Part shown: positions 1 to 27,351 of the stretch, piece by piece
Layout of the letters: every line of letters begins with the position of its first letter
Position numbering within the stretch: position 1 is the stretch's first letter
Assembly: GCA_026982565.1 (NCBI GenBank)
Contig: JALSGV010000214.1
Location: 1-36,057, forward strand
Length of the DNA stretch: 36,057 bases
From: Gammaproteobacteria bacterium
Lineage (GTDB): Bacteria > Pseudomonadota > Gammaproteobacteria > SZUA-140
Direction of reading: 5' to 3'
Translations under genes and position numbers: made by a program
The notes under the pieces: model-generated
The model's database searches: none
What the model saw: the letters and a program-made list of their open reading frames with translations, nothing else
What the model was told of the DNA's origin: nothing

Positions 1-178
1 GTACTACCAGTTTCGACATATTACACGTCCTTACTTTCTGCATCGGCAGGTGGCAAGGATGACTTGACCCTTTAACCCATGCATGCAGGGCGGCAGGGAA
101 GGGTTTCGGCAGGAACGATGTTTACAGCCGCCTCAAATATAGCATATTCCCGGACGCTCCAGCATCCTTCCTTCCGGC

Positions 179-207
179 TTCGTTATGGAACGTCTTGCGT
201 ATATACT
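179..207 (+). promoter_or_regulatory. possible sigma70 promoter of glyQ
   Basis: A -10-like TATACT at 202-207 stands 17 bp after a weak -35-like TTCGTT at 179-184. Transcription would start near 214 and give a leader of about 30 nt before the glyQ ATG. The -10 matches well and the -35 poorly, so this is tentative. The rest of 1-243 shows no gene that I can support. Confidence 0.3.
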
Positions 208-243
208 GTGCGCTCCTGGAATCATGCGATACGGCAGACGAAC

Positions 244-1179
244 ATGACGAACGAAAAGGCGACCGACCTCAAGACCTTTCAGGGCTTGATTCTGGCGCTG
301 CAACAATACTGGTCGGCGCAGGGCTGCCTGCTGCTGCAACCCTATGACATGGAGATGGGGGCCGGAACCTTCCATCCCGCCACTTTCCTGCGCGCCATCG
401 GGCCGGAGCCTTGGCGGGCCGCCTACGTGCAACCCTGCCGGCGTCCCACCGACGGACGCTATGGCGAGAACCCCAACCGCCTGCAGCACTATTATCAGTT
501 CCAGGTGGTGATCAAGCCCTCGCCGCTGGACATACAGGAACTGTACCTGGGTTCGCTGAAGGCCCTGGGCTTCGACCCCCTGGTCCATGATATCCGCTTC
601 GTGGAAGACAACTGGGAATCACCCACCCTGGGCGCCTGGGGGCTGGGCTGGGAAGTGTGGCTCAACGGCATGGAGGTGACCCAGTTCACCTATTTTCAGC
701 AGGTGGGGGCCCTGGACTGCGCGCCCGTCACGGGAGAAATCACCTATGGCCTGGAGCGCATCGCCATGTACCTGCAGAGCGTGGAAAGCATCTTCGACCT
801 GGTATGGCAGCAAGGCCCCGGCGGTCGCGTTACCTATGGCGACGTGTTTCATCAGAACGAAGTGGAGATGTCGGCCTATAATTTCGAACACGCCAAGGTG
901 GAGGCCCTGTTCTCCGCCTTCGACACCTGCGAGGCGGAGAGCCGCAAGCTGATCGAGGCCAATCTGCCCCTGGCCGCCTATGAAATGGTGCTCAAGGCCT
1001 CCCATCATTTCAACCTGCTGGATGCCCGCCACGCCATCAGCGTCACTGAGCGGGCGCGCTATATCGGCCGCGTCAGGGCCTTGTCCCAGGCGGTGGCGGA
1101 GGCCTATTACCAGGGACGCGAGGCGCTGGGATTCCCCCTGTGCAATGAACGGGTGCCGTCAAGGGCGGGGGAGGCGTGA
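244..1179 (+). CDS. glyQ: glycyl-tRNA synthetase alpha subunit
   Basis: Catalytic alpha subunit of the bacterial alpha2beta2 class II glycyl-tRNA synthetase, which charges tRNA-Gly in the cytoplasm. The protein is 311 aa, close to the roughly 300 aa typical of the family, and shows the conserved N-terminal block from [13 protein letters not shown] through [26 protein letters not shown]. The reading frame is open back to 79, but the extra 55 codons encode nothing resembling GlyQ, and the ATG at 244 gives the expected start ([12 protein letters not shown]). No clear Shine-Dalgarno precedes it. Its TGA overlaps the glyS ATG by one base, so the two subunits are translationally coupled. Identification is secure. 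Confidence 0.97.
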
Positions 1180-3266
1180 TGGCGCGGCAGGATTTTCTTT
1201 TCGAACTGGGCACCGAGGAGCTGCCGCCCCGCGCGCTGGCGCGGCTCAGCGAGGACCTGACGCGAGGCGTCGTCGAGGGCCTGAAGAAACAGGACCTTGC
1301 CCACGGCGGGGTGAAGTCCTATGCCACGCCGCGCCGTCTGGCCGTGCTGGTGGAAAATCTGGACACGGTGAGGGCGGGGCAGGTCAATGAGCGGCGCGGC
1401 CCGGCCCTGAGCGCGGCATTCGGGGATGACGGCATACCCACGGCGGCGGCGCAGGGGTTTGCCCGTTCTTGCGGCGTGACGGTCGATGAACTGGAGACCC
1501 TGAAGAATGAACGGGGCGCCTGGCTGGTCTACCGTACCCGACAGGCAGATGTGCCGACGGCCACCCTGCTGCCCGCAATCATCGCCGCCGCCCTGGCGGC
1601 CCTGCCCATTCCCAAGCGCATGCGCTGGGGGAGCCTGACAGAGGCGTTCGTGCGTCCTGTGCACTGGGTGGTCATGCTGCACGGCGACCAAGTGGTGGAG
1701 GCCGGGATGTTCGGTGTGCGCGCGGGACGCGAGACGCGCGGCCATCGTTTCCATCACCCCGGGGCGTTGTACCTGCCCGGGCCCGCGGCCTATGCGCCGT
1801 TGCTGGAGTCCAGCGGGCGGGTGATGGCGGATTTCGCGGCGCGGCGCGAGGCGATTCGTGGCCAGGTGATGGCCGCGGCGGCGGAGGTGCAGGGCGAGGC
1901 CGTCATCGACGACAGTCTGCTGGACGAGGTGACGGGCATGGTGGAATGGCCGGTGGCCGTGGTGGGCAGTTTCGATGCGGCCTATCTGCGGGTGCCGGCC
2001 GAGGCCCTCGTCTCGGCCATGAAGGGGCATCAGAAATATTTTCATCTGGTGGACGAGGAAGGATGCCTGCTGCCCCGCTTCATCGCCATCAGCAATATCG
2101 AGAGCAGCGCCCCCGATCTGGTGCGGGAAGGCAATGAGCGCGTCATACGCCCGCGCCTGGCGGACGCCGCCTTCTTCTGGGAGCAGGACCGCAAGACGCC
2201 TTTGGCGCAGCGGCTGGAAGACCTCAAACACGTGGTCTTCCAGAAAAAACTGGGCACCCTGTGGCAGAAGACGCAACGTGTGACGGCGCTGGCCGGGGAC
2301 ATTGCCCGGCGACTGGACGGCAGTGCAGACTGGGCGGAGCGCGCGGCGCAATTGTCGCGCTGCGACCTGTTGACCGACATGGTGGGTGAATTTCCCGAAC
2401 TGCAGGGCATCATGGGGCGCTATTATGCCGCCCATGACGGCGAGCCCGCCGAGGTGGCCCAGGCGCTGGACGAATTGTACATGCCGCGTTTCGCCGGCGA
2501 CCGCCTGCCCGTTTCCGTGACCGGCCAGGCCCTGGCCATCGCGGACCGCCTCGATACCCTGGTGGGCATCTTCGGCATCGGCCTGACGCCGACGGGGGAC
2601 AAGGATCCCTTTGCCCTGCGCCGCGCCGCCCTGGGATTGTTGCGCATTCTCATTGAGCAAAGACTGGATCTCGATCTTCTGTCGCTGCTGAAGGAGGCCG
2701 CGGCCTCCTATGGTGACGCGCCGCGTTTTGATCAAGCCCTGCCAGGGAATGTCTTCGACTTTATGATGGAACGCCTGCGCGCCTACTACCATGACAAGGG
2801 GATCGCCCCCGATGTCTTTACGGCCGTGCTGCAGCGTCGTCCCACCGTGCCGGTCGATTTCGACGACCGCATCCGGGCCGTGGAGACCTTCCGCGGCCTG
2901 CCCGAGGCGGAGAGCCTGGCCACCGCCCACAAGCGCATCTCGAATATTCTGCGCAAGGCCCCGGATACCGTACCCGGGGAGATCGATACCGGCCTGCTCC
3001 GCGAACCCGAGGAGAAGGCCCTGGCGTCCCGCATCGAGGCATTGTCCCGGGAGACGGCGCCATATCTGGCGCGCGGCGATTATACCTGCGTATTGACCAC
3101 CCTGGCCGGGCTGCGCGAGCCCGTCGACGCCTTTTTCGATGAAGTGATGGTCATGTGCGAGGATGACGGGCTGCGCGGCAACCGCCTGGCGCTGCTCGCC
3201 AGTCTGCGGAAGATGTTCCTGCAAGTGGCCGACCTCTCCTGCCTGCAGGCCGTGCAAGGATCGTAA
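1179..3266 (+). CDS. glyS: glycyl-tRNA synthetase beta subunit
   Basis: Beta subunit of the tetrameric glycyl-tRNA synthetase, needed for tRNA recognition. It is 695 aa, similar to the roughly 690 aa usual for the family, and opens with the characteristic FLFELGTEELPPRAL. An internal stretch (GHQKYFHLVDEEGCLLPRF and following) is also typical. I chose the ATG at 1179, which overlaps the last base of the glyQ stop codon; a GTG at 1176 would add one residue. The gmhB-like gene follows after 7 bp, so glyQ, glyS, the gmhB-like gene and plsC read as one transcript, an order also known from pseudomonads. Confidence 0.97.
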   Translation: MARQDFLFELGTEELPPRALARLSEDLTRGVVEGLKKQDLAHGGVKSYATPRRLAVLVENLDTVRAGQVNERRGPALSAAFGDDGIPTAAAQGFARSCGVTVDELETLKNERGAWLVYRTRQADVPTATLLPAIIAAALAALPIPKRMRWGSLTEAFVRPVHWVVMLHGDQVVEAGMFGVRAGRETRGHRFHHPGALYLPGPAAYAPLLESSGRVMADFAARREAIRGQVMAAAAEVQGEAVIDDSLLDEVTGMVEWPVAVVGSFDAAYLRVPAEALVSAMKGHQKYFHLVDEEGCLLPRFIAISNIESSAPDLVREGNERVIRPRLADAAFFWEQDRKTPLAQRLEDLKHVVFQKKLGTLWQKTQRVTALAGDIARRLDGSADWAERAAQLSRCDLLTDMVGEFPELQGIMGRYYAAHDGEPAEVAQALDELYMPRFAGDRLPVSVTGQALAIADRLDTLVGIFGIGLTPTGDKDPFALRRAALGLLRILIEQRLDLDLLSLLKEAAASYGDAPRFDQALPGNVFDFMMERLRAYYHDKGIAPDVFTAVLQRRPTVPVDFDDRIRAVETFRGLPEAESLATAHKRISNILRKAPDTVPGEIDTGLLREPEEKALASRIEALSRETAPYLARGDYTCVLTTLAGLREPVDAFFDEVMVMCEDDGLRGNRLALLASLRKMFLQVADLSCLQAVQGS

Positions 3267-3273
3267 TATTACC

Positions 3274-3810
3274 ATGAACCTGGTTTTTCTGGGACGTGAC
3301 GGGGTGATCAACGAGCTTGCCAATGGCCCGGTCCTGACGCCGGAGGCGTGGCGGCCCCTGCCCGGCAGCCTGCGCGCCATCGCCCGCCTCACCCATGCCC
3401 ATTACCGTGTCGTGGTCGCCAGCAACCAGCCGGCCCTGGCCAGCGGCGAACTGGACGTGGGCACGCTGAACCGCATCCACGAAAAGATGCACCGCGAGGT
3501 GGCTGCGGAAGGGGGGCGTATCGAGGCCATCATCTATTGTCCTCATGGGCCGGGCGACGGATGCAATTGCCGCAAGCCTGCGCCGGGCATGTTCCGGGAG
3601 ATCTGCCAGCGCTTGCACCTGGACCCCCACGGCATACCGGTGATCGGTGATTCACAGGCCGATATGGACGCGGCAGGGGCTATCGGCGCGCGCGCCATGC
3701 TGGTCAGGAGCGGCCGTGGCCGGGTGGTGGAGGCGCGCCTGGATGCCGGTCAGCCGGTGGAGGTCCATGACGACTTGGCTGCGGCCGTGGATGCCTTGTT
3801 GGAAAATTGA
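3274..3810 (+). CDS. gmhB: GmhB-like HAD phosphatase lacking the nucleophilic Asp
   Basis: By family and position this is D-glycero-beta-D-manno-heptose-1,7-bisphosphate 7-phosphatase, a step in making ADP-heptose for the LPS inner core. The 178-aa protein keeps the zinc loop (YCPHGPGDGCNC then RKPAPGM), the motif II region (ASNQ) and the motif IV region (GDSQADMDAA). HAD motif I, normally DxDG with the first Asp as nucleophile (FLDRDG in E. coli), reads FLGRDG here: residue 7 is Gly (GGA, 3292-3294), while the second Asp (residue 9) stays. The usual NQSGIARG loop is also changed, to NQPALASG. A Gly codon GGA differs from any Asp codon at two bases, which argues against one miscalled base. 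The protein may be inactive as a phosphatase or have another role. It lies between glyS (7 bp) and plsC (18 bp). Confidence 0.85.
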   Translation: MNLVFLGRDGVINELANGPVLTPEAWRPLPGSLRAIARLTHAHYRVVVASNQPALASGELDVGTLNRIHEKMHREVAAEGGRIEAIIYCPHGPGDGCNCRKPAPGMFREICQRLHLDPHGIPVIGDSQADMDAAGAIGARAMLVRSGRGRVVEARLDAGQPVEVHDDLAAAVDALLEN

Positions 3811-3828: not shown

Positions 3829-4560
3829 ATGCTGTTTGTAAGATCCTTGCTGTATCAGGTGGTCATCATCGTCTTCACCCTGTTTTTTGCCCCCTTGTGT
3901 CTGTTGACCTTCCCTTTTCCCTTCGAGACGCGCTACAACTTCATCCGCCGCTGGGCGCACTTCAATCTGTGGTGGCTGAAGAAGACTTGCGGCCTGGATT
4001 ACCGGGTCAGCGGTGTAGAGAATATCCCCGCCACCAACGCCATCATATTCTGTAAACACCAGTCCGTGTGGGAGACCCTGGTACTGCAGGAAATCTTTCC
4101 TCCCCAGGTGTGGCTGCTCAAGCGGGAGCTGTTATGGGTGCCTTTCTTCGGCTGGGGCCTGGCCTTGCTGGAGCCCATCGCCATCGACCGCAAGTCGCGC
4201 CGCGAGGCCATGCGCCAGCTGCTGGAGCAGGGTAAAAAGCGCCTGGAGGACGGCCGCTGGGTGGTGATCTTTCCCGAGGGCACCCGCGTGGCGCCGGGGC
4301 AGAAGAAGGCCTATCAGAAGGGGGGCGCCATCCTGGCGGAGAAGACCGGCTATCCCGTGGTGCCGGTGGCCCACAATGCGGGGGAGTACTGGCCGCGGCG
4401 CAGCTTCATCAAGCGTCCGGGCACTATCCAGGTAGTCATTGGCCCGCCCATCGATACCCGGGGAAAGACCTATCAGGAGATCAACCGCGAGGCGGAGGCC
4501 TGGATCGAGGCCAGGCTGGCGGAGATCAGCACCTTGCCGTCGCCGGACCGTAGCGAGTGA
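3829..4560 (+). CDS. plsC: PlsC-type 1-acyl-sn-glycerol-3-phosphate acyltransferase family protein
   Basis: Membrane-associated lysophospholipid acyltransferase, 243 aa. The N-terminus has a hydrophobic membrane segment (roughly residues 5-28). The catalytic block is HX4E (KHQSVWETL), a variant of the usual HX4D that I recall from the LptA/PA0005-like branch in Pseudomonas; the phosphate-binding block FPEGTRVAPGQ and a following KGGAILA are clear. Known members acylate lysophosphatidic acid or other lysolipids; which substrate this one uses cannot be told from sequence. It is the last gene of the glyQ cluster and ends 9 bp from the stop of a convergent lipoprotein gene. Confidence 0.9.
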   Translation: MLFVRSLLYQVVIIVFTLFFAPLCLLTFPFPFETRYNFIRRWAHFNLWWLKKTCGLDYRVSGVENIPATNAIIFCKHQSVWETLVLQEIFPPQVWLLKRELLWVPFFGWGLALLEPIAIDRKSRREAMRQLLEQGKKRLEDGRWVVIFPEGTRVAPGQKKAYQKGGAILAEKTGYPVVPVAHNAGEYWPRRSFIKRPGTIQVVIGPPIDTRGKTYQEINREAEAWIEARLAEISTLPSPDRSE

Positions 4561-4572
4561 GCGACACGCTCA
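4558..4572. terminator. short hairpin joining two convergent stop codons
   Basis: TGAGCG-ACA-CGCTCA is a perfect 6-bp inverted repeat with a 3-nt loop. Its left end is the plsC TGA (4558-4560) and its right end, read on the minus strand, is the TGA of the lipoprotein gene (4570-4572). There is no T tract on either side. It may act as a small bidirectional terminator or 3'-end stabiliser, or be coincidental. Confidence 0.3.
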
Positions 4573-5697
4573 GGAACCGAGCAGGTCAGCCCAGGTCATG
4601 CTCACGTCATCTGCGCCGTCGTTGATGTCAAGTAGGACATTGGTGCTGTTGAGGATGTCCAGGGTAACGCTGGAAGTGTCGCTGCTTATGATCCTGAGGC
4701 GGCCGCTGTCATAGGGACCGGGCGGCAGGTCGCCCAGGGTGGACCCAGAGAAACGGTTGAGCGCTTGGCGGGTGGCGATGGTCAGGGCGCTGGTGGAGCC
4801 GCCACTGCGGTTGATGCCGCCGTTGACATTGAGGGTCGTCGCCGAGGTGTTGATGTCGAAGTTGTAGTTCAGGGAGAACTGGTTCTGGACGGTCACCGTC
4901 TGCCCGTCCTGGTATGAGAGTCCCAGGGGCGATTCCACCTGGATCAGCCCCGAGCCGCTGGCGCTGGTATCCGCATTGGCGCTGAAGCGCATGGCGCCCG
5001 AATTGATGGTGATGGGGCGCACGCCGTCATCGATGCGCAGTCCCCCGGTAAAGGTGAACAGGGCTGATATGTCTCCGGGAACAACCCTGAATTCTGAGAT
5101 TCTCAGGTTACCGTTGAGAGTGACGCCGTTGAGGACGCAGTCCGTGAATCTGGCATCGATAACGCTTTGGTCGACACTGAGGTTATCCACCATTCCCCCC
5201 GCGCAGGGTACCAACGGATTCCTGTGAATGCCCACCACCATGGATGTATCCAGCAGGGACAGGCTGTCCAGCTCAGCCATGTAGGCCAATTGCCTCAGGG
5301 CGAAACTGCTCAGGCTGAAGGTGTTTCTGGCAGGAGTGCTTTGCGAGGCCGTAACGATGCCTTCACCAATCCCTTGCCGTTCGCCCAGGTCATAGAAAAT
5401 ATCGATGACAGTGAGAACGGCGTTGGTGACTTCCGCGGCATTGCTGCGGTCGATGTTGGTGGCATTGCCCGCCACCCCGCTGCCGCCCGTGTTGTCGGAG
5501 GGGGGGTTGCTGCAGGTGCCGGGGGTGCCGGGAGTGGTGACGCATTCGTCGGGCGTGACGCCGCCGGTATTGATAGTGTTCTGCGTGGAACTCTGGGGCT
5601 GGGTTGCGCTGCTCCCCCCCCCGCATGCAGATAGGGCAAGCGCTGCAAGCACTACGATGAGAAAACGTGGGGATGCGATGTCTTTATTATATTTCAT
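4570..5697 (-). CDS. predicted lipoprotein of unknown function
   Basis: I do not recognise a family. From the ATG at 5697 the protein is 375 aa with a lipoprotein signal peptide: basic start (MKYNKD), hydrophobic core (FLIVVLAALALS) and lipobox LSAC with the lipidated Cys at residue 25. No Asp follows the Cys, so outer-membrane sorting is the simple expectation. After it comes a Gly/Ser/Thr/Asn-rich linker containing two cysteines, then a long domain rich in Thr, Ser, Asn and Val that looks beta-structured, with two further cysteines around residues 170-190. The frame is open for 15 codons further upstream, but the signal peptide fixes the start. The gene stands alone between plsC (convergent) and rsmA (same strand, with its own promoter-like sequence). 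Confidence 0.8.
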   Translation of the reverse strand: MKYNKDIASPRFLIVVLAALALSACGGGSSATQPQSSTQNTINTGGVTPDECVTTPGTPGTCSNPPSDNTGGSGVAGNATNIDRSNAAEVTNAVLTVIDIFYDLGERQGIGEGIVTASQSTPARNTFSLSSFALRQLAYMAELDSLSLLDTSMVVGIHRNPLVPCAGGMVDNLSVDQSVIDARFTDCVLNGVTLNGNLRISEFRVVPGDISALFTFTGGLRIDDGVRPITINSGAMRFSANADTSASGSGLIQVESPLGLSYQDGQTVTVQNQFSLNYNFDINTSATTLNVNGGINRSGGSTSALTIATRQALNRFSGSTLGDLPPGPYDSGRLRIISSDTSSVTLDILNSTNVLLDINDGADDVSMTWADLLGS

Positions 5698-5762
5698 GTG
5701 GGATTGCCCCGTGCGGGATGCTGCATTGGAGTGAAGCAGCACGATTAAGAAGAATGGCGAAA

Positions 5763-15500: not shown

Positions 15501-15715
15501 TGACCAGCATCACGACCTTTCTGGGGGTGTCGCCCTTGATCTTCTTTTCCACGGGGCAGGCCGCCTTTCTCGCTCCCATGGCGGTCAGCCTGGGTTTTGG
15601 CCTGTTGTTTGCCACTGTTTTGATATTGGTGGGCATCCCATGCTTCTACCTCCTCGCCGATGACTTGCGCCGCGCGGCGGGAAAAATATTTCATGCACGG
15701 GAGCCGGCCCCATGA
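12569..15715 (+). CDS. RND efflux pump, inner-membrane transporter (HAE1-like), pair 1
   Basis: Proton-driven RND transporter of 1048 aa, the usual size. It shows the N-terminal transmembrane helix, two large periplasmic loops and two six-helix bundles. The TM4 proton-relay motif is intact: GMIVDDAIIVTEN with Asp396 and Asp397, equivalent to the D407/D408 pair of AcrB. In the TM10 region it has GIVVNDSLILVDFAKR. Substrates cannot be predicted; the double Asp and overall form fit the HAE1 drug/lipid-type pumps rather than heavy-metal (HME) pumps. The last codons overlap the amgK start (ATGA), so amgK is probably co-translated with the pump. Confidence 0.93.
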   Translation: MKLVGFSIDNPLITNLFLVLVLVIGVTSWYAMPQEMFPVVELDKVRVTTVFEGASPEEMERQVTLPIEEELDGMADIDVITSTSSEGLSSILVEFKHGADIDEFLLDARTAIDRLTDLPEDAERPEITRLKTRFPVLNVALYGDVALPALMDVADQLKRRLLAIPGVASAGTAGEREWELQVVVDPLELAARRVPLSLVTRQLRDNLRDLPGGSIEAEEGDILLRGIGLAPDPQTIGGMVLRSNPRGGKLLLREVADVHFRLEEARTLARFNGQPSVNITITKTPDASTIDVSERVRQLVEELHGEYPPTIHLAVYSDLSKYVKTRLETVKSSGLVGLVLVLLSLYLFLNFRVAVITALGIPVSFLFATIMLNYLGYTINMVSLFAFLVVLGMIVDDAIIVTENIYRHMEGGMDAAAAAQRGAREVFWPVVASTATTIAAFIPMFSVGGTMGAFIAVIPVVVIFALTGSLLEVFGVLPSHACELLKVDGGGRQRKRLVNWGALLERYVVMMRWCLHNRYLVTTAIVGVLAVFLTFAATRMSFELFGAVETGQFFINVEAPNTYSLEDSARLAAHIEALVMEEIGDEELDSLLTNVGVTFVDFTTIKFESNYIQLIVDLEKPRPHGFIERWITPLVTLRFSREGTRERDTLSVINAIRSRLQSEPGIQRLSIQRTQGGPAGSDVEVGILGENIDVLRDYGHRIVNYLRQLPGVYDVRQDLEPGKLEYHYSLNEKGRQLGLTQKTLAEAVRIGFQGRTVVHVTRADRRVPVRVIYPEPLRSEGGGLENLQIVLSSGDIVYLGDVADIGMTRGANVVKRRDMQRMATVTAEVDATQATAIEISDQVQREFAPLFEGQPGYEMIFLGEKRKAGKSIADMLRAMVIALAVIFFILAALFKSLLDPLVVMFAIPFGVIGVIFGHWALGYHLQFLSLVGFLALAGIVVNDSLILVDFAKRLRAQGWERIEAMVEAGRVRTRPILLTSITTFLGVSPLIFFSTGQAAFLAPMAVSLGFGLLFATVLILVGIPCFYLLADDLRRAAGKIFHAREPAP

Positions 15716-16698
15716 GTGAACATGGACGCATGGCGCAGCTGAGCGGCTGGTTGTCGGCGCAATTGGGCGACAAGCCCTTCGAGCTTGCGCCGGCTTCCGC
15801 GGATGCCAGTTTCCGGCGCTACTTCAGGGTGCGCTGTGGGGATGAGAGCCACATCGTCATGGACGCGCCGCCCGGCAAGGAAGACTGCCGGCCATTTGTT
15901 GCAGTGGCCCGGGCCTTCTCCCGTGTGGGCCTTAACGTGCCGGAGGTCCTCGCCGCCGACCTGGAGAACGGGTTTCTGTTGCTGAGCGATTTCGGTGACC
16001 GCCAGTACCTCCAGGTTCTGAATGCCGGCAATGTGGGGGGGCTCTATGACGATGCCCTGCAGTCCCTGCTCGTCTTGCAGGGCGCGGGGTCGGGTGGGGG
16101 CATCCTGCCGCCTTATGACGAGGCCCTGCTGCTGAAGGAAATGGATCTGTTTCGTGACTGGTACCTGGAGGGTTACCTCGGCATGAGCCTGGATGCTGGA
16201 CAGGCCCGGTTGCTGGAGCGGTCCTTTTCCCTTTTGGCGGCATCGGCCCTGGAGCAGCCGCGGGTATGGGTGCACCGGGATTACCACTCACGCAACCTGA
16301 TGCTGGTGGAGGGGCGTAACCCGGGCATTCTCGATTTTCAGGACGCGGTGTACGGCCCGCTCTGCTATGATCTCGTATCCCTGTTGCGGGATTGTTATAT
16401 CGCCTGGCCGGCAGCGCAAGTGGATGCATGGGTGGAGGCATATTTTACCCGCGCCCGGACACAGGGAGGGCTGGAGGGCATCGATCTGGCGCAGTTCAGG
16501 CGCTGGTTCGACTGGATGGGCATGCAACGTCACTTCAAGGCCATCGGTATTTTCTCTCGCCTTTACCTGCGTGACGGCAAGCCGGGTTACCTGGGCGATA
16601 TCCCCCGTACGATGAACTATGTGCTGGAAAGTGCGGCGAGGTACGGGGTCTTCAAGGCTTTGAAGGATTTTCTGGCAGACCTCCCACGGCGCTCGTGA
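15712..16698 (+). CDS. amgK: N-acetylmuramate/N-acetylglucosamine kinase AmgK-like
   Basis: Aminoglycoside-phosphotransferase fold kinase of 328 aa. In Pseudomonas AmgK phosphorylates MurNAc/GlcNAc at C1 for the MurU-dependent cell-wall recycling route that bypasses de novo UDP-MurNAc synthesis. The catalytic loop VHRDYHSRNLML (HxDxxxxN type) and the metal-binding ILDFQDAVYGPLCYDLVSLLRD are clear, as is the N-terminal ADASFRRYFRV block. The position near a divergent lptD supports the call, but here an RND pair intervenes between lptD and amgK, and the expected downstream murU is replaced by a second RND pair. The start overlaps the pump stop (ATGA). Sugar specificity is inferred from family and context. 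Confidence 0.85.
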   Translation: MSEHGRMAQLSGWLSAQLGDKPFELAPASADASFRRYFRVRCGDESHIVMDAPPGKEDCRPFVAVARAFSRVGLNVPEVLAADLENGFLLLSDFGDRQYLQVLNAGNVGGLYDDALQSLLVLQGAGSGGGILPPYDEALLLKEMDLFRDWYLEGYLGMSLDAGQARLLERSFSLLAASALEQPRVWVHRDYHSRNLMLVEGRNPGILDFQDAVYGPLCYDLVSLLRDCYIAWPAAQVDAWVEAYFTRARTQGGLEGIDLAQFRRWFDWMGMQRHFKAIGIFSRLYLRDGKPGYLGDIPRTMNYVLESAARYGVFKALKDFLADLPRRS

Positions 16699-24111: not shown

Positions 24112-25275
24112 TTATGAAGCGCAGACCTGGGCATAGTCGGAATAACCGGGAAATTCACTGCCCTCGCTGCAGTAACGGCACTCGGGATTGCGCCGCGTCT
24201 TGAGCATGGTGAACTGGGTGGACAAGGCATCATAGTGCAGTTGCCGGCCCACCAGGGGCTCGCCGATGTCCAGCAGGATCTTGATGGTCTCGACGGCCTG
24301 CAGCAGTCCCAGCACGCCGGGCATGACGCCCAGAACGCCGGCCTCGGCGCAGGAAGGGGCCAGTTCAGGCGGGGGCGGCTCGGGGAACATACAGCGGTAA
24401 CAGCCGCTGCCCTGCTTGTCGTAGGCGGGCCAGAATACGGTGATCTGTCCCTCGAAACGGTAGACGGCGGCATGGACATTGGGCCGGCCGAGTTTCACGC
24501 AGGCGTCGTTGATGAGATAGCGGGTGGTGATATTGTCGGTGCCATCGACGATGATGTCGTAATTTGAGAAGATCTCTTCCACGTTGCCGCTGTCAAGGTG
24601 GGTTTCGTAGCCGGTGACCTCAATGCCCGGGTTCAGCGCCTCCAGGGCAATTTTGGCCGATTCCACTTTGGCCATGCCGACCCTGGCCTCGGTGTGCAGG
24701 ATCTGCCGCTGCAGGTTGCTGCGGTCGACTACATCGTGGTCCACCAGGCCCAGATTACCTACACCGGCCGCAGCCAGATAATAGGCCGCGGGTGAACCCA
24801 GGCCGCCCGCGCCGATGAGCAGCACACGGCTTTCCAGCAGTTTCAGCTGCCCTTCTTCCCCCACGTCGGAGATCATCAGGTGGCGTGCATAACGCTCGCG
24901 GTCTTCGCTGCTGAGAAAGGTGGGCACCTCGAAGGGGTGGCCTTCGTTTTTCCAGCGGCTGAATCCCCCGGCAATGGAGCGCACGTCCTGATAGCCCATG
25001 CGTTTCAGGGCCTCGGCGGCGAACAGGGAGCGCACGCCGCCGGCGCACATGACGCACAGTGTCTTGTCCAGCTCGGGCACGGCGTCCTCGACGCGCAGTT
25101 CCAGGAAGCTGCGCCCCAGGCGGTGGGCCCCGGCGGGGCTGCCCTGGGCGACTTCTTCATTGTCGCGCACATCGATGAGTGCGGCGCCACTCTTTTGCAG
25201 TTCCAGCGCTTCAGCGGGGGTGACTTCGGGGATGCTTGCGCGCAGTTCTGCCAGTCGACGGTCTTTGGCTTTCAT
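24112..25275 (-). CDS. moeB: rhodanese-MoeB fusion, molybdopterin-synthase adenylyltransferase
   Basis: E1-like enzyme that adenylates the C-terminal Gly-Gly of a MoaD/ThiS-type carrier; the attached rhodanese can supply persulfide sulfur. The protein has 387 aa. Residues 15-115 are a rhodanese domain with the active-site loop CAGGVRS, and the rest is MoeB/ThiF: GAGGLGSPAAYYLAAAGVG nucleotide site, NLQRQILH, DGTDN with the catalytic Asp, and zinc pairs CYRC and CRYC. In bacteria the rhodanese more often follows the E1 domain, so the N-terminal placement is notable. The ATG at 25275 has a GGAGG 10 bp upstream. The likely carrier is MoaD encoded at 29655. Catalytic function is inferred from intact motifs. 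Confidence 0.92.
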   Translation of the reverse strand: MKAKDRRLAELRASIPEVTPAEALELQKSGAALIDVRDNEEVAQGSPAGAHRLGRSFLELRVEDAVPELDKTLCVMCAGGVRSLFAAEALKRMGYQDVRSIAGGFSRWKNEGHPFEVPTFLSSEDRERYARHLMISDVGEEGQLKLLESRVLLIGAGGLGSPAAYYLAAAGVGNLGLVDHDVVDRSNLQRQILHTEARVGMAKVESAKIALEALNPGIEVTGYETHLDSGNVEEIFSNYDIIVDGTDNITTRYLINDACVKLGRPNVHAAVYRFEGQITVFWPAYDKQGSGCYRCMFPEPPPPELAPSCAEAGVLGVMPGVLGLLQAVETIKILLDIGEPLVGRQLHYDALSTQFTMLKTRRNPECRYCSEGSEFPGYSDYAQVCAS

Positions 25276-25664: not shown

Positions 25665-26414
25665 TTATTGCGCGCAAACGGGACAGGCGGGATCCCGGCG
25701 CAGCTTGAGTGTCTTGAAGCTCATGTCCGAGGCATTCAACAGCAACAATCTTCCCGCCAGGGTGCCGGGCAGGTTCAATAGAACCTTGATGGCCTCTGTG
25801 GCCATAATGGCGCCGATGATTCCGGCGACGGGGGCGAGAATGCCCTGGTCGCTGCATCCGCCCCGTTGATCTTCCTGATCATGGCGTGAGTAGAGGCACT
25901 CGAAGCAAGGGCTGTCGCCAGAATCATGACGAAACACGCTCGCCTGCCCTTCCATGCGGATGACGGCGCCCGATACCAGGGGCTTGCGCGCCTTGGCGCA
26001 GGCGGTATTGATGCGAAAGCGGGTGGGAAAATTGTCGCAGGCATCGATCACCAGGTCCACGTCCGCAAGGGTGGCGGGCAGGGCGTCATCATCGAGTTGC
26101 CCGTCGAGGGTGATGACATGGCAATGGGGGTTGAGTTCCCGCAGTGTAACTGCCGCCGAATCCGTTTTCTTGAGGCCGATGTCGCTGGTTCCATGAAGAA
26201 TCTGGCGGTGGATGTTGCTGATGTCCACCCTGTCGAAGTCGTTGATGAGCAGTTGCCCCACGCCGCTGCCTGCAAGATACAGGGCGACGGGCGAGCCCAG
26301 CCCGCCGGCCCCGACGATCAGTACCCGGGCGCGGAGCAGCCTCTCCTGCCCGGCGACATCGATCTCCGGCAGCAGGATCTGGCGGCTGTAGCGATGGAGT
26401 TGCTCGTCATCCAT
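25665..26414 (-). CDS. second MoeB/ThiF-type E1-like adenylyltransferase
   Basis: A stand-alone 249-aa E1-like enzyme without a rhodanese domain. Motifs are intact: MDDEQLHRYSRQILLPEI start, GAGGLGSPVALYLAGSGVG ATP site, NIHRQILH, DACDN catalytic Asp region, zinc pairs CFEC and CPVC, and a Cys in GGCSDQGILAPV. It is clearly different from the rhodanese-MoeB 389 bp away, so it is not a fresh duplicate. Its ATG (26414) overlaps the 3' end of the kelch gene by 8 bp, which implies coupled translation. It could serve MoaD, a ThiS-like carrier or another beta-grasp protein; no second carrier is encoded nearby. I leave the symbol empty because MoeB, ThiF and HesA-type roles cannot be separated here. 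Confidence 0.88.
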   Translation of the reverse strand: MDDEQLHRYSRQILLPEIDVAGQERLLRARVLIVGAGGLGSPVALYLAGSGVGQLLINDFDRVDISNIHRQILHGTSDIGLKKTDSAAVTLRELNPHCHVITLDGQLDDDALPATLADVDLVIDACDNFPTRFRINTACAKARKPLVSGAVIRMEGQASVFRHDSGDSPCFECLYSRHDQEDQRGGCSDQGILAPVAGIIGAIMATEAIKVLLNLPGTLAGRLLLLNASDMSFKTLKLRRDPACPVCAQ

Positions 26415-27351
26415 GCAGGGGACTGTAACACCACAGGAAGTCCTGCGGCTCGCGGCGGTCGTCCGCCCAGCCTCCGAGGAGAAAGATATTGCGGTCGATG
26501 ACGGCCACGCCCATGGCCGCCAGGGTGTGGGGCATGGGGGGGAGGATATGCCATTGTTTCCGGGCGATGTCATAGCAGGCGGCATGGTCGCTGATGCCGT
26601 CGCCACTGTAGCCGCCGAAGATGAACATATGTCCGTCAGTGAGGCAGGCGCCGGCGCCGGCAGCCGTCCAGGGCAGGGTGATTTCGCCCCGCGACCACTG
26701 TCCCGTGGCGGGGTCGAAGACTTCCGTATGGTCGAAATTATTGAATCCTTCGGGGGTGAAGGCCACGCCACCCATGGTGACGATTTTGTCATCGATGACC
26801 ACCGCATCCAGGGCGAAGCGCGGCGTGGGCAGGGGGGCAACCTCTTCCCAACGGCCGGTGTCGAGATTGAGGCGTTCGCAAAATGCGAAGCCGGGATCCG
26901 TCTGCGGTCCCGCAACCACGGCATCGGGATGGTGGCCGCCCATGATGTAGATATGCTTGTCGAGCAGCACGCCGGCCGGATAGTCATGGGGCTGCAGCAT
27001 ATCGGGGCCGGTCTCCCAGGTGTCGCTTTGCGGATAATAGATTTCGGTCGTGGGCAGGAATTTGAAAGTACCGTCTGTCTGTTTAAAACCGCCCCCTATG
27101 ATATAGATGGCGTCACCAACCGTCAGCGCAATCGCCCCTGAGCGCAAGGTGGGCATATCGGCGCCGCTGTTCCAGCTGTCGTTCTGCGGGTCATAGATGA
27201 TGACGGAGTTGAGGCTCTTGAAATTGGGGCCGCCACCGCCGAATCCATATATCTTGCCGTTATAAGCGGCTGTGGGGCAGTGGGAGCGGGCCATCGCCAG
27301 GCGGGTCTTTTCCAGCCAGGCGCCGTTGTGTATGTTGCTTGTATTTTCCAT
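26407..27351 (-). CDS. kelch-repeat beta-propeller protein
   Basis: The 314-aa protein consists almost entirely of six kelch repeats, each with a hydrophobic strand ending in Gly-Gly (IYGFGGGG, IYIIGGG, IYIMGGH, IVTMGGV, MFIFGGY, IFLLGGW) followed at a fixed distance by aromatic positions such as DPQNDSW or DPATGQW. Six blades fit a closed propeller. There is no signal peptide, so it is probably cytoplasmic, unlike secreted bacterial kelch proteins such as NanM. No catalytic domain is attached. It is translated first and overlaps the E1-like gene by 8 bp, which suggests that the two proteins act together; the role is unknown. An AGAGAG 5 bp before the ATG can serve as Shine-Dalgarno. Confidence 0.85.
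   Translation of the reverse strand: MENTSNIHNGAWLEKTRLAMARSHCPTAAYNGKIYGFGGGGPNFKSLNSVIIYDPQNDSWNSGADMPTLRSGAIALTVGDAIYIIGGGFKQTDGTFKFLPTTEIYYPQSDTWETGPDMLQPHDYPAGVLLDKHIYIMGGHHPDAVVAGPQTDPGFAFCERLNLDTGRWEEVAPLPTPRFALDAVVIDDKIVTMGGVAFTPEGFNNFDHTEVFDPATGQWSRGEITLPWTAAGAGACLTDGHMFIFGGYSGDGISDHAACYDIARKQWHILPPMPHTLAAMGVAVIDRNIFLLGGWADDRREPQDFLWCYSPLHG

Follow-up and report, generated by a model that had tools for sequence, protein, structure and literature searches.

In the chemistry of HAD phosphatases, an aspartate nucleophile forms a phospho-aspartyl intermediate, and a structural zinc site of the form C-x-H ... C-x-C is a feature of the HAD phosphatase GmhB. Pseudophosphatases, and pseudoenzymes in general, retain a conserved fold under selection after a catalytic residue has been lost. 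For GmhB, HAD motif I has been given as DXDX(T/V) (PMC8204981), and part of the enzyme's role in E. coli and K. pneumoniae is reported to be covered by an unknown activity (PMC9302095). In the titles and abstract openings of the open-access literature, no description of a nucleophile-less GmhB was found. Here, a gmhB-like gene of this kind was examined in a stretch of 36,057 nucleotides (the window) from a draft gammaproteobacterial genome (G000, taxonomic family f1), together with its relatives in other genomes.

A GmhB-like protein with glycine at the nucleophile position

The gene encodes a protein of 178 aa whose translation begins MNLVFLGRDGVINE and which belongs to the HAD-IIIA GmhB group (Table 1). 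It passes the NCBIfam equivalog model for GmhB, NF006506 (cut-off 178), and falls below the cut-off of TIGR00213 (64.6 versus 149.6). The closest solved proteins are 3l8h (179.7 bits) and 4pnh (175.8 bits), both with Asp at the position aligned to residue 7. An AlphaFold2 model (mean pLDDT 94.5) found its best match in 3l8h, with an rmsd of 1.2 Å. Motif I, expected to be DxD with a nucleophilic first Asp, reads GRDGV, and the substrate loop departs from the GmhB pattern NQSG(I/L/V)(A/G)RG. The Ser/Thr of motif II (Ser50), the Arg-Lys of motif III, the GDxxxD of motif IV and, at the sequence level, the C-x-H ... C-x-C pattern of a predicted metal site are all present. A preliminary description of the window had named the missing nucleophile, the kept Asp9, zinc loop and motif IV, the altered loop and an ORF free of decay; reading of the intact ORF bore out each of these.

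Table 1. Coordinates of the gmhB-like gene, its sites and its neighbours in the window
Feature	Position	Strand	Basis
glyQ, glycyl-tRNA synthetase alpha	79..1179	+	TIGR00388, 533 bits
glyS, glycyl-tRNA synthetase beta	1176..3266	+	TIGR00211, 859 bits
Predicted GmhB-like pseudophosphatase, 178 aa	3274..3810	+	NF006506, 180.1 bits; predicted fold TM 0.97 to 3l8h
Codon 7, GGA = Gly at HAD nucleophile Asp position	3292..3294	+	Aligned to Asp in 3l8h and 4pnh
Asp9, general acid/base position, retained	3298..3300	+	Reading of the translation; 29/31 non-Asp copies keep Asp9
Substrate loop, residues 51-58, NQPALASG versus NQSG(I/L/V)ARG	3424..3447	+	Ser53 to Pro, Arg57 to Ser
Zinc loop ligands C89, H91, C97, C99, all retained	3538..3570	+	Pattern C89-x-H91...C97-x-C99
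Motif III Arg100-Lys101, retained	3571..3576	+	Reading of the translation
Motif IV D126...D130 (GDSQAD), retained	3649..3663	+	Reading of the translation
plsC-like 1-acylglycerol-3-phosphate acyltransferase	3829..4560	+	Family match

The stop codon of glyS lies 7 bases upstream of the gene, and the plsC-like gene starts 18 bases downstream. The family match of GlyQ begins at residue 65, so its true start is probably near 271. The order glyQ-glyS-gmhB-plsC is a conserved neighbourhood, and the gene is the orthologue of the GmhB located between glyS and plsC in many Gammaproteobacteria. By BLAST, the glyS-gmhB-plsC order recurs in relatives lacking the nucleophile Asp (non-Asp copies) wherever the contig reaches, with one neighbour undetected at a few loci. 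Loci collected in a scan for Gly-type copies likewise lie downstream of glyS and mostly upstream of plsC where the contig allows; plsC went undetected by this BLAST in three Microbulbifer loci and in L040, L045 and L046.

Other genes of the window were also inspected. A 390-aa ORF at 4570-5742 (−) has no Pfam or NCBIfam match; a homologue lies downstream of plsC in G001 (50% identical) and another near plsC in G011 (30% identical), and for this reason it is read as a lineage-specific conserved gene. An AmgK-like sugar kinase gene at 15712-16698 (+) (NF045759, 303 bits, under the cut-off of 550) is flanked by two RND efflux adaptor/permease gene sets. Two adjacent MoeB/ThiF-type adenylyltransferase ORFs occupy 24112-25275 and 25665-26987 (−), one with an N-terminal rhodanese domain and the other with a long N-terminal part without assignment.

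Residue 7 in related genomes

Within family f1, Gly occupies residue 7 in G000 and in four genomes of two further genera (G006, G007, G010 and G011), Ser in G001 (same genus as G000), Val in G002 and Ala in G008; Asp was found in seven genomes, all of genus g3. The orthologue of G004 ends at a contig end before motif I, leaving residue 7 unreadable. A pattern scan that included GRDGVINE, and was hence ascertained for Gly, returned 14 Gly-type loci from G006 and thirteen further genomes, belonging to Granulosicoccaceae, Lysobacterales, Microbulbifer, Marinibactrum, Salinisphaerales, Sedimenticola and others.

For a broader view, an even draw of 370 Gammaproteobacteria (the class draw) was used, 310 of which had a GmhB-type match. 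The pattern [A/G/V]RDGVIN matched in six of these genomes, and each match was checked individually, a backward control pattern being about equally frequent; four were true (G000, G007, G137 and G194) and two were unrelated proteins. Reading motif I in genomes without HldE added Gly (G121, G232, G323), Ala (G061), Asn (G267), Glu (G307, G352) and Ser (G108). The 12 non-Asp genomes of the class draw fall into eight taxonomic families, with Gly in four and A, S, N or E elsewhere or alongside. Altogether, residue 7 could be read in 169 examined GmhB-type proteins and is non-Asp in 31 of them (in L030 it is missing at a contig end), the replacements being G, A, S, V, N and E. The case that the preliminary description had set against its reading, relatives all carrying Asp, is thus not what the alignment contains. 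No preference for Gly is claimed, two of the searches having used Gly-containing patterns.

Two copies from HldE-less genomes show other changes in motif I. L078 (G319) retains Asp7 and has Asn in place of Asp9 (LDHNG), a different first loss. L106 (G108) is extremely diverged, with Ser7, Glu9 and several more catalytic sites lost, and its ORF is still intact between glyS and plsC.

Relation to the ADP-heptose pathway

Matches to ADP-heptose genes in the window genome, a draft 90.8% complete, were all weak. The best HldE match (TIGR02198) reached 39.6 bits against a cut-off of 345 and the best HldD match 121.7 against 274.6; for heptosyltransferases (PF01075), a 37-position fragment at 26 bits was found and no credible full match. 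The gmhB-like gene itself was the sole GmhB/HisB-type match over cut-off, so there was no second GmhB. With all of these missing, most likely no ADP-heptose pathway is left, although in a draft of that completeness a missing gene does not prove absence. G001 likewise lacks HldE, an HldD match reaching its cut-off and a second GmhB, but has three GT9-family genes.

In the class draw, genomes were called HldE-less when the best E value, read by eye, was worse than 1e-50 (99/370; the curated cut-off would give 113/370). Non-Asp residues occurred in 12 of the 47 examined HldE-less copies versus none of 96 HldE-bearing copies (Fisher p = 5.5e-7, in a test that ignores kinship), the 96 being mostly the best-scoring of about 254 with a match. 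The remaining HldE-bearing copies were covered by the [A/G/V]RDGVIN search only, which found none in HldE-bearing genomes. Over all HldE-bearing genomes examined, Asp was present in 103 of 105 readable copies, the exceptions being G006 and G010. Of 10 independent pairs on a tree of glyS and plsC, a mean of 6.9 had HldE loss on the non-Asp side and almost none had the reverse (median p 0.016). HldE was absent in all 13 Gly genomes behind L035-L047 and in G137, G194 and G061. One genus holds the contrast within itself, with Asp and HldE in G291 versus Gly (G194) or Ala (G061) without HldE; G244, of the same family as G137, and G400 are also Asp-type with HldE.

The association is no strict rule in either direction, with Asp retained in 35 of the 47 examined HldE-less copies and Gly present in the two HldE-bearing genomes. 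Six Asp-type HldE-less pairs evolve slowly relative to glyS (median 0.63); given this and the frequent retention of Asp, an active phosphatase may serve another substrate in such genomes. Both HldE-bearing exceptions, as well as G004, carry a second, Asp-type gmhB (DRDG) that adjoins a GmhA-like ORF, assigned by eye (L207 in G006, L208 in G010, L209 in G004), and the glyS-linked copy would therefore be free to lose catalysis. At these three loci an adenylylsulfate-kinase-like ORF also adjoins, and L207 and L208 have nucleotide-sugar genes close by, again by eye. The preliminary description had offered, as one option, that another enzyme dephosphorylates heptose phosphate. This fits G006, G010 and probably G004, and fails for the window genome, which has neither HldE nor a second GmhB, no HldD match reaching its cut-off and no full match to the heptosyltransferase family.

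Second GmhB/HisB-type matches were also seen in G391 and G397. The glyS-linked copy of G397 is Gly-type, and its other GmhB, Asp-type, adjoins a GHMP-kinase-like ORF resembling HddA by eye (L210), which suggests a GDP-heptose route. In 52 of the 99 HldE-less class-draw genomes there was no examined copy of the glyS-linked gene, counting nine with a weak or HisB-like match alone (frames of 361-484 aa and similar) as being without it; the gene is thus dispensable in many lineages.

Number of losses

On the glyS and plsC tree (148 rows; 22 of 170 loci were excluded for short glyS/plsC data), the distribution of Asp and non-Asp needs 15 changes, at least 10 of them on well-supported branches. Trees of gmhB itself gave fewer. 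A first gmhB tree grouped 17 non-Asp rows at 81% support and needed 8 changes; the single ancient Gly-type clade that such grouping would imply is ruled out by the 15 changes of the neighbour-gene tree. When 27 functional positions were removed, the gmhB tree (145 columns, hence short) needed 13 changes, of which well-supported branches force only 3; many origins are therefore not proven by the gmhB tree on its own. In this reduced tree the closest neighbours of several non-Asp copies are Asp copies from the same taxonomic family, the f119 Gly copy being nearest its own family's Asp copy and L035 nearest L161, a pattern expected of convergent change at functional sites. Judged from these sequence comparisons, nucleophile loss is convergent, having happened in 10 or more lineages by the neighbour-gene tree.

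Sites lost, sites kept and selection

Retention in the 31 non-Asp proteins is uneven: 94% for the zinc ligands, 75% for other conserved positions and 63% for seven catalytic or substrate positions. Among the latter, Ser53 is kept in 16%, Arg57 in 23%, Asp126 in 68%, Lys101 in 74% and Asp9 in 94%, the last value being affected by the presence of Asp9 in some search patterns (88% in a less biased subset of 16 rows). Zinc ligands or motif III are also lost in some copies (L039, L045, L106). Of 103 HldE-bearing Asp-type copies, 101 retain Ser53 and 102 retain Arg57.

Position 53 is Pro in 21 of 31 non-Asp rows versus 1 of 138 Asp-type rows. Counted over independent pairs this association is one-sided (4.2 of 10 on average) and short of significance (median p 0.125). 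GC pressure on Gly7 and Pro53, both AT-to-GC changes, is an insufficient explanation: Pro53 also occurs in low-GC lineages, and L036, L047 and L044, at 41-45% GC, have both residues. Position 57 is scattered in the non-Asp copies (D in 4, E in 4, S, A and L in 3 each, T, G and Q in 2 each, H in 1, R in 7). The codon for Ser53 is TCN in 129 of 131 Asp-type copies and AGC in Microbulbifer and L038, codons that no single substitution interconverts.

Codon comparisons used hand-picked pairs of close relatives. For the non-Asp pairs, dN/dS ranged from 0.06 to 0.55 with a median of 0.11 (12 of 13 pairs, the thirteenth having saturated dS), values that are rough because dS is above 1 in several pairs; for G000 versus G001 it was 0.118 with dS near saturation. 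In five pairs for which the calculation was made, neutrality predicts 8 to 24 stop codons, and none was observed. The ratio of gmhB dN to glyS dN had a median of 1.70 in non-Asp pairs versus 0.86 in 18 Asp-type HldE-bearing pairs, an acceleration of about twofold over active copies (Mann-Whitney p = 4.7e-5 relative to glyS and p = 0.022 relative to plsC). With dN raised and dN/dS this low, the non-Asp copies are relaxed but not neutral, and purifying selection continues after the loss. A trio of f103 copies with Gly7 and Cys or Ser at motif IV gave dN/dS of 0.06-0.09; its single pair with glyS data had a ratio of 1.00, i.e. no acceleration.

Interpretation

We regard the protein as probably a pseudophosphatase under selection, most likely with a non-catalytic job, for which binding is the form to which we commit. 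Loss of the ADP-heptose pathway, suggested for this lineage by the missing genes, or duplication of the function by a second gmhB, would end selection on catalysis. The nucleophile would then be lost (Asp7 to Gly here), repeatedly across lineages, along with substrate-loop residues (Ser53 to Pro, Arg57 to Ser, the DS...IK(S) segment). By known HAD chemistry such a protein should be unable to form the phospho-aspartyl intermediate. A folded, zinc-binding protein is presumably still made from the operon, with its sequence apparently under purifying selection, as seen for pairs of relatives, and these two points argue for the non-catalytic job. It might bind a partner protein, the co-encoded GlyS or PlsC being obvious candidates, or hold a phosphorylated ligand without hydrolysis in the pocket of Asp9, Arg100, Lys101 and motif IV. 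The option of a retained pseudo-enzyme in the preliminary description agrees with the kept fold and zinc ligands and with the selection on non-Asp pairs.

The main competitor is that the protein has been functionless since heptose loss and is drifting towards deletion, the ORF persisting owing to slow loss or to the disturbance that a frameshift would cause to plsC translation. The twofold acceleration and the many HldE-less genomes without an examined copy speak for drift and count against a retained role; the further sites lost in several copies, the scattered residues at position 57, the six different nucleophile replacements and the multi-step AGC codons at Ser53 point the same way. It is at odds with dN/dS far under 1, most clearly in the f103 trio, with the absence of stop codons and with the retained zinc site. 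Because selection still preserves the fold and the zinc site within the glyS-plsC operon, we favour a non-catalytic role over passive decay, although the latter keeps real weight and is judged unlikely rather than dismissed. Catalysis by other means, for instance through Asp9, the zinc site or a bound metal and on another substrate, would suit the intact Asp9, motif II, Arg100/Lys101, motif IV and zinc ligands, and the parallel Ser53 to Pro change looks directed. Apart from Pro53, though, the substrate-loop residues are scattered with no new common set, Lys101 or Asp126 is also lost in several non-Asp lineages, and we know of no HAD phosphatase that works without the aspartyl nucleophile, so that we hold such a shift in chemistry to be improbable.

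That heptose is still made, with another phosphatase in place of GmhB, has precedents in G006 and G010, which combine HldE with a second Asp-type gmhB beside a GmhA-like gene, in the same arrangement around a truncated orthologue in G004, and in the activity reported to back up GmhB in part in E. coli and K. pneumoniae (PMC9302095). For the window genome it is very improbable given the genes missing there and in G001, although the latter does have three GT9-family genes. An error at codon 7 could be entertained for a 214-contig draft; GGA is two substitutions from GAT or GAC, the loop has changed with it, and Ser in G001 and Gly in four other f1 genomes rule out an assembly error or a strain mutation, so its probability is negligible, as the preliminary description had argued for a single read error.

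Returning to a selected non-catalytic protein, a wider reading is possible, although we hold it only tentatively: in heptose-less Gammaproteobacteria, the glyS-plsC-linked GmhB would repeatedly have turned non-catalytic while serving a selected function of its own in the operon, perhaps one that pre-existed beside catalysis. As part of it, and just as tentatively, the route may be partly repeatable, with the nucleophile out, Ser53 to Pro, Arg57 out and the zinc fold kept. Should the kept protein do a job, a second role for GmhB, apart from catalysis, may exist in a conserved operon for tRNA charging and phospholipid synthesis. The recurrence in many lineages and the tie to the heptose pathway were not visible from the single sequence. 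Because it passes the NCBIfam equivalog cut-off, the protein would be labelled an active GmhB by annotation pipelines, and a heptose step would be wrongly inferred. Given the link between HldE loss and nucleophile loss, a non-Asp motif I in glyS-linked gmhB could serve as a marker of a genome without an ADP-heptose route, or with a second gmhB.

Comparison with known systems

The protein resembles the GmhB of 3l8h in fold, length, zinc loop and motifs II-IV, and the Asp-type orthologues of other Gammaproteobacteria in its position between glyS and plsC. It differs from GmhB in the missing motif I nucleophile, the altered substrate loop and a genome without HldE or HldD above cut-off. E. coli-type GmhB (2gmw, 3l8e) and the HisB N-terminal phosphatase (2fpr) belong to the same HAD subfamily and are about 25-30% identical to it; the second, Asp-type gmhB of G006, G010 and G004 is of a different kind, closer by eye to this E. 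coli-type/HisB group. With pseudoenzymes in general the protein shares a conserved fold with a lost catalytic residue, apparently retained under selection, whereas here the loss is tied to that of a defined pathway and recurs, on the neighbour-gene tree, in at least 10 lineages.
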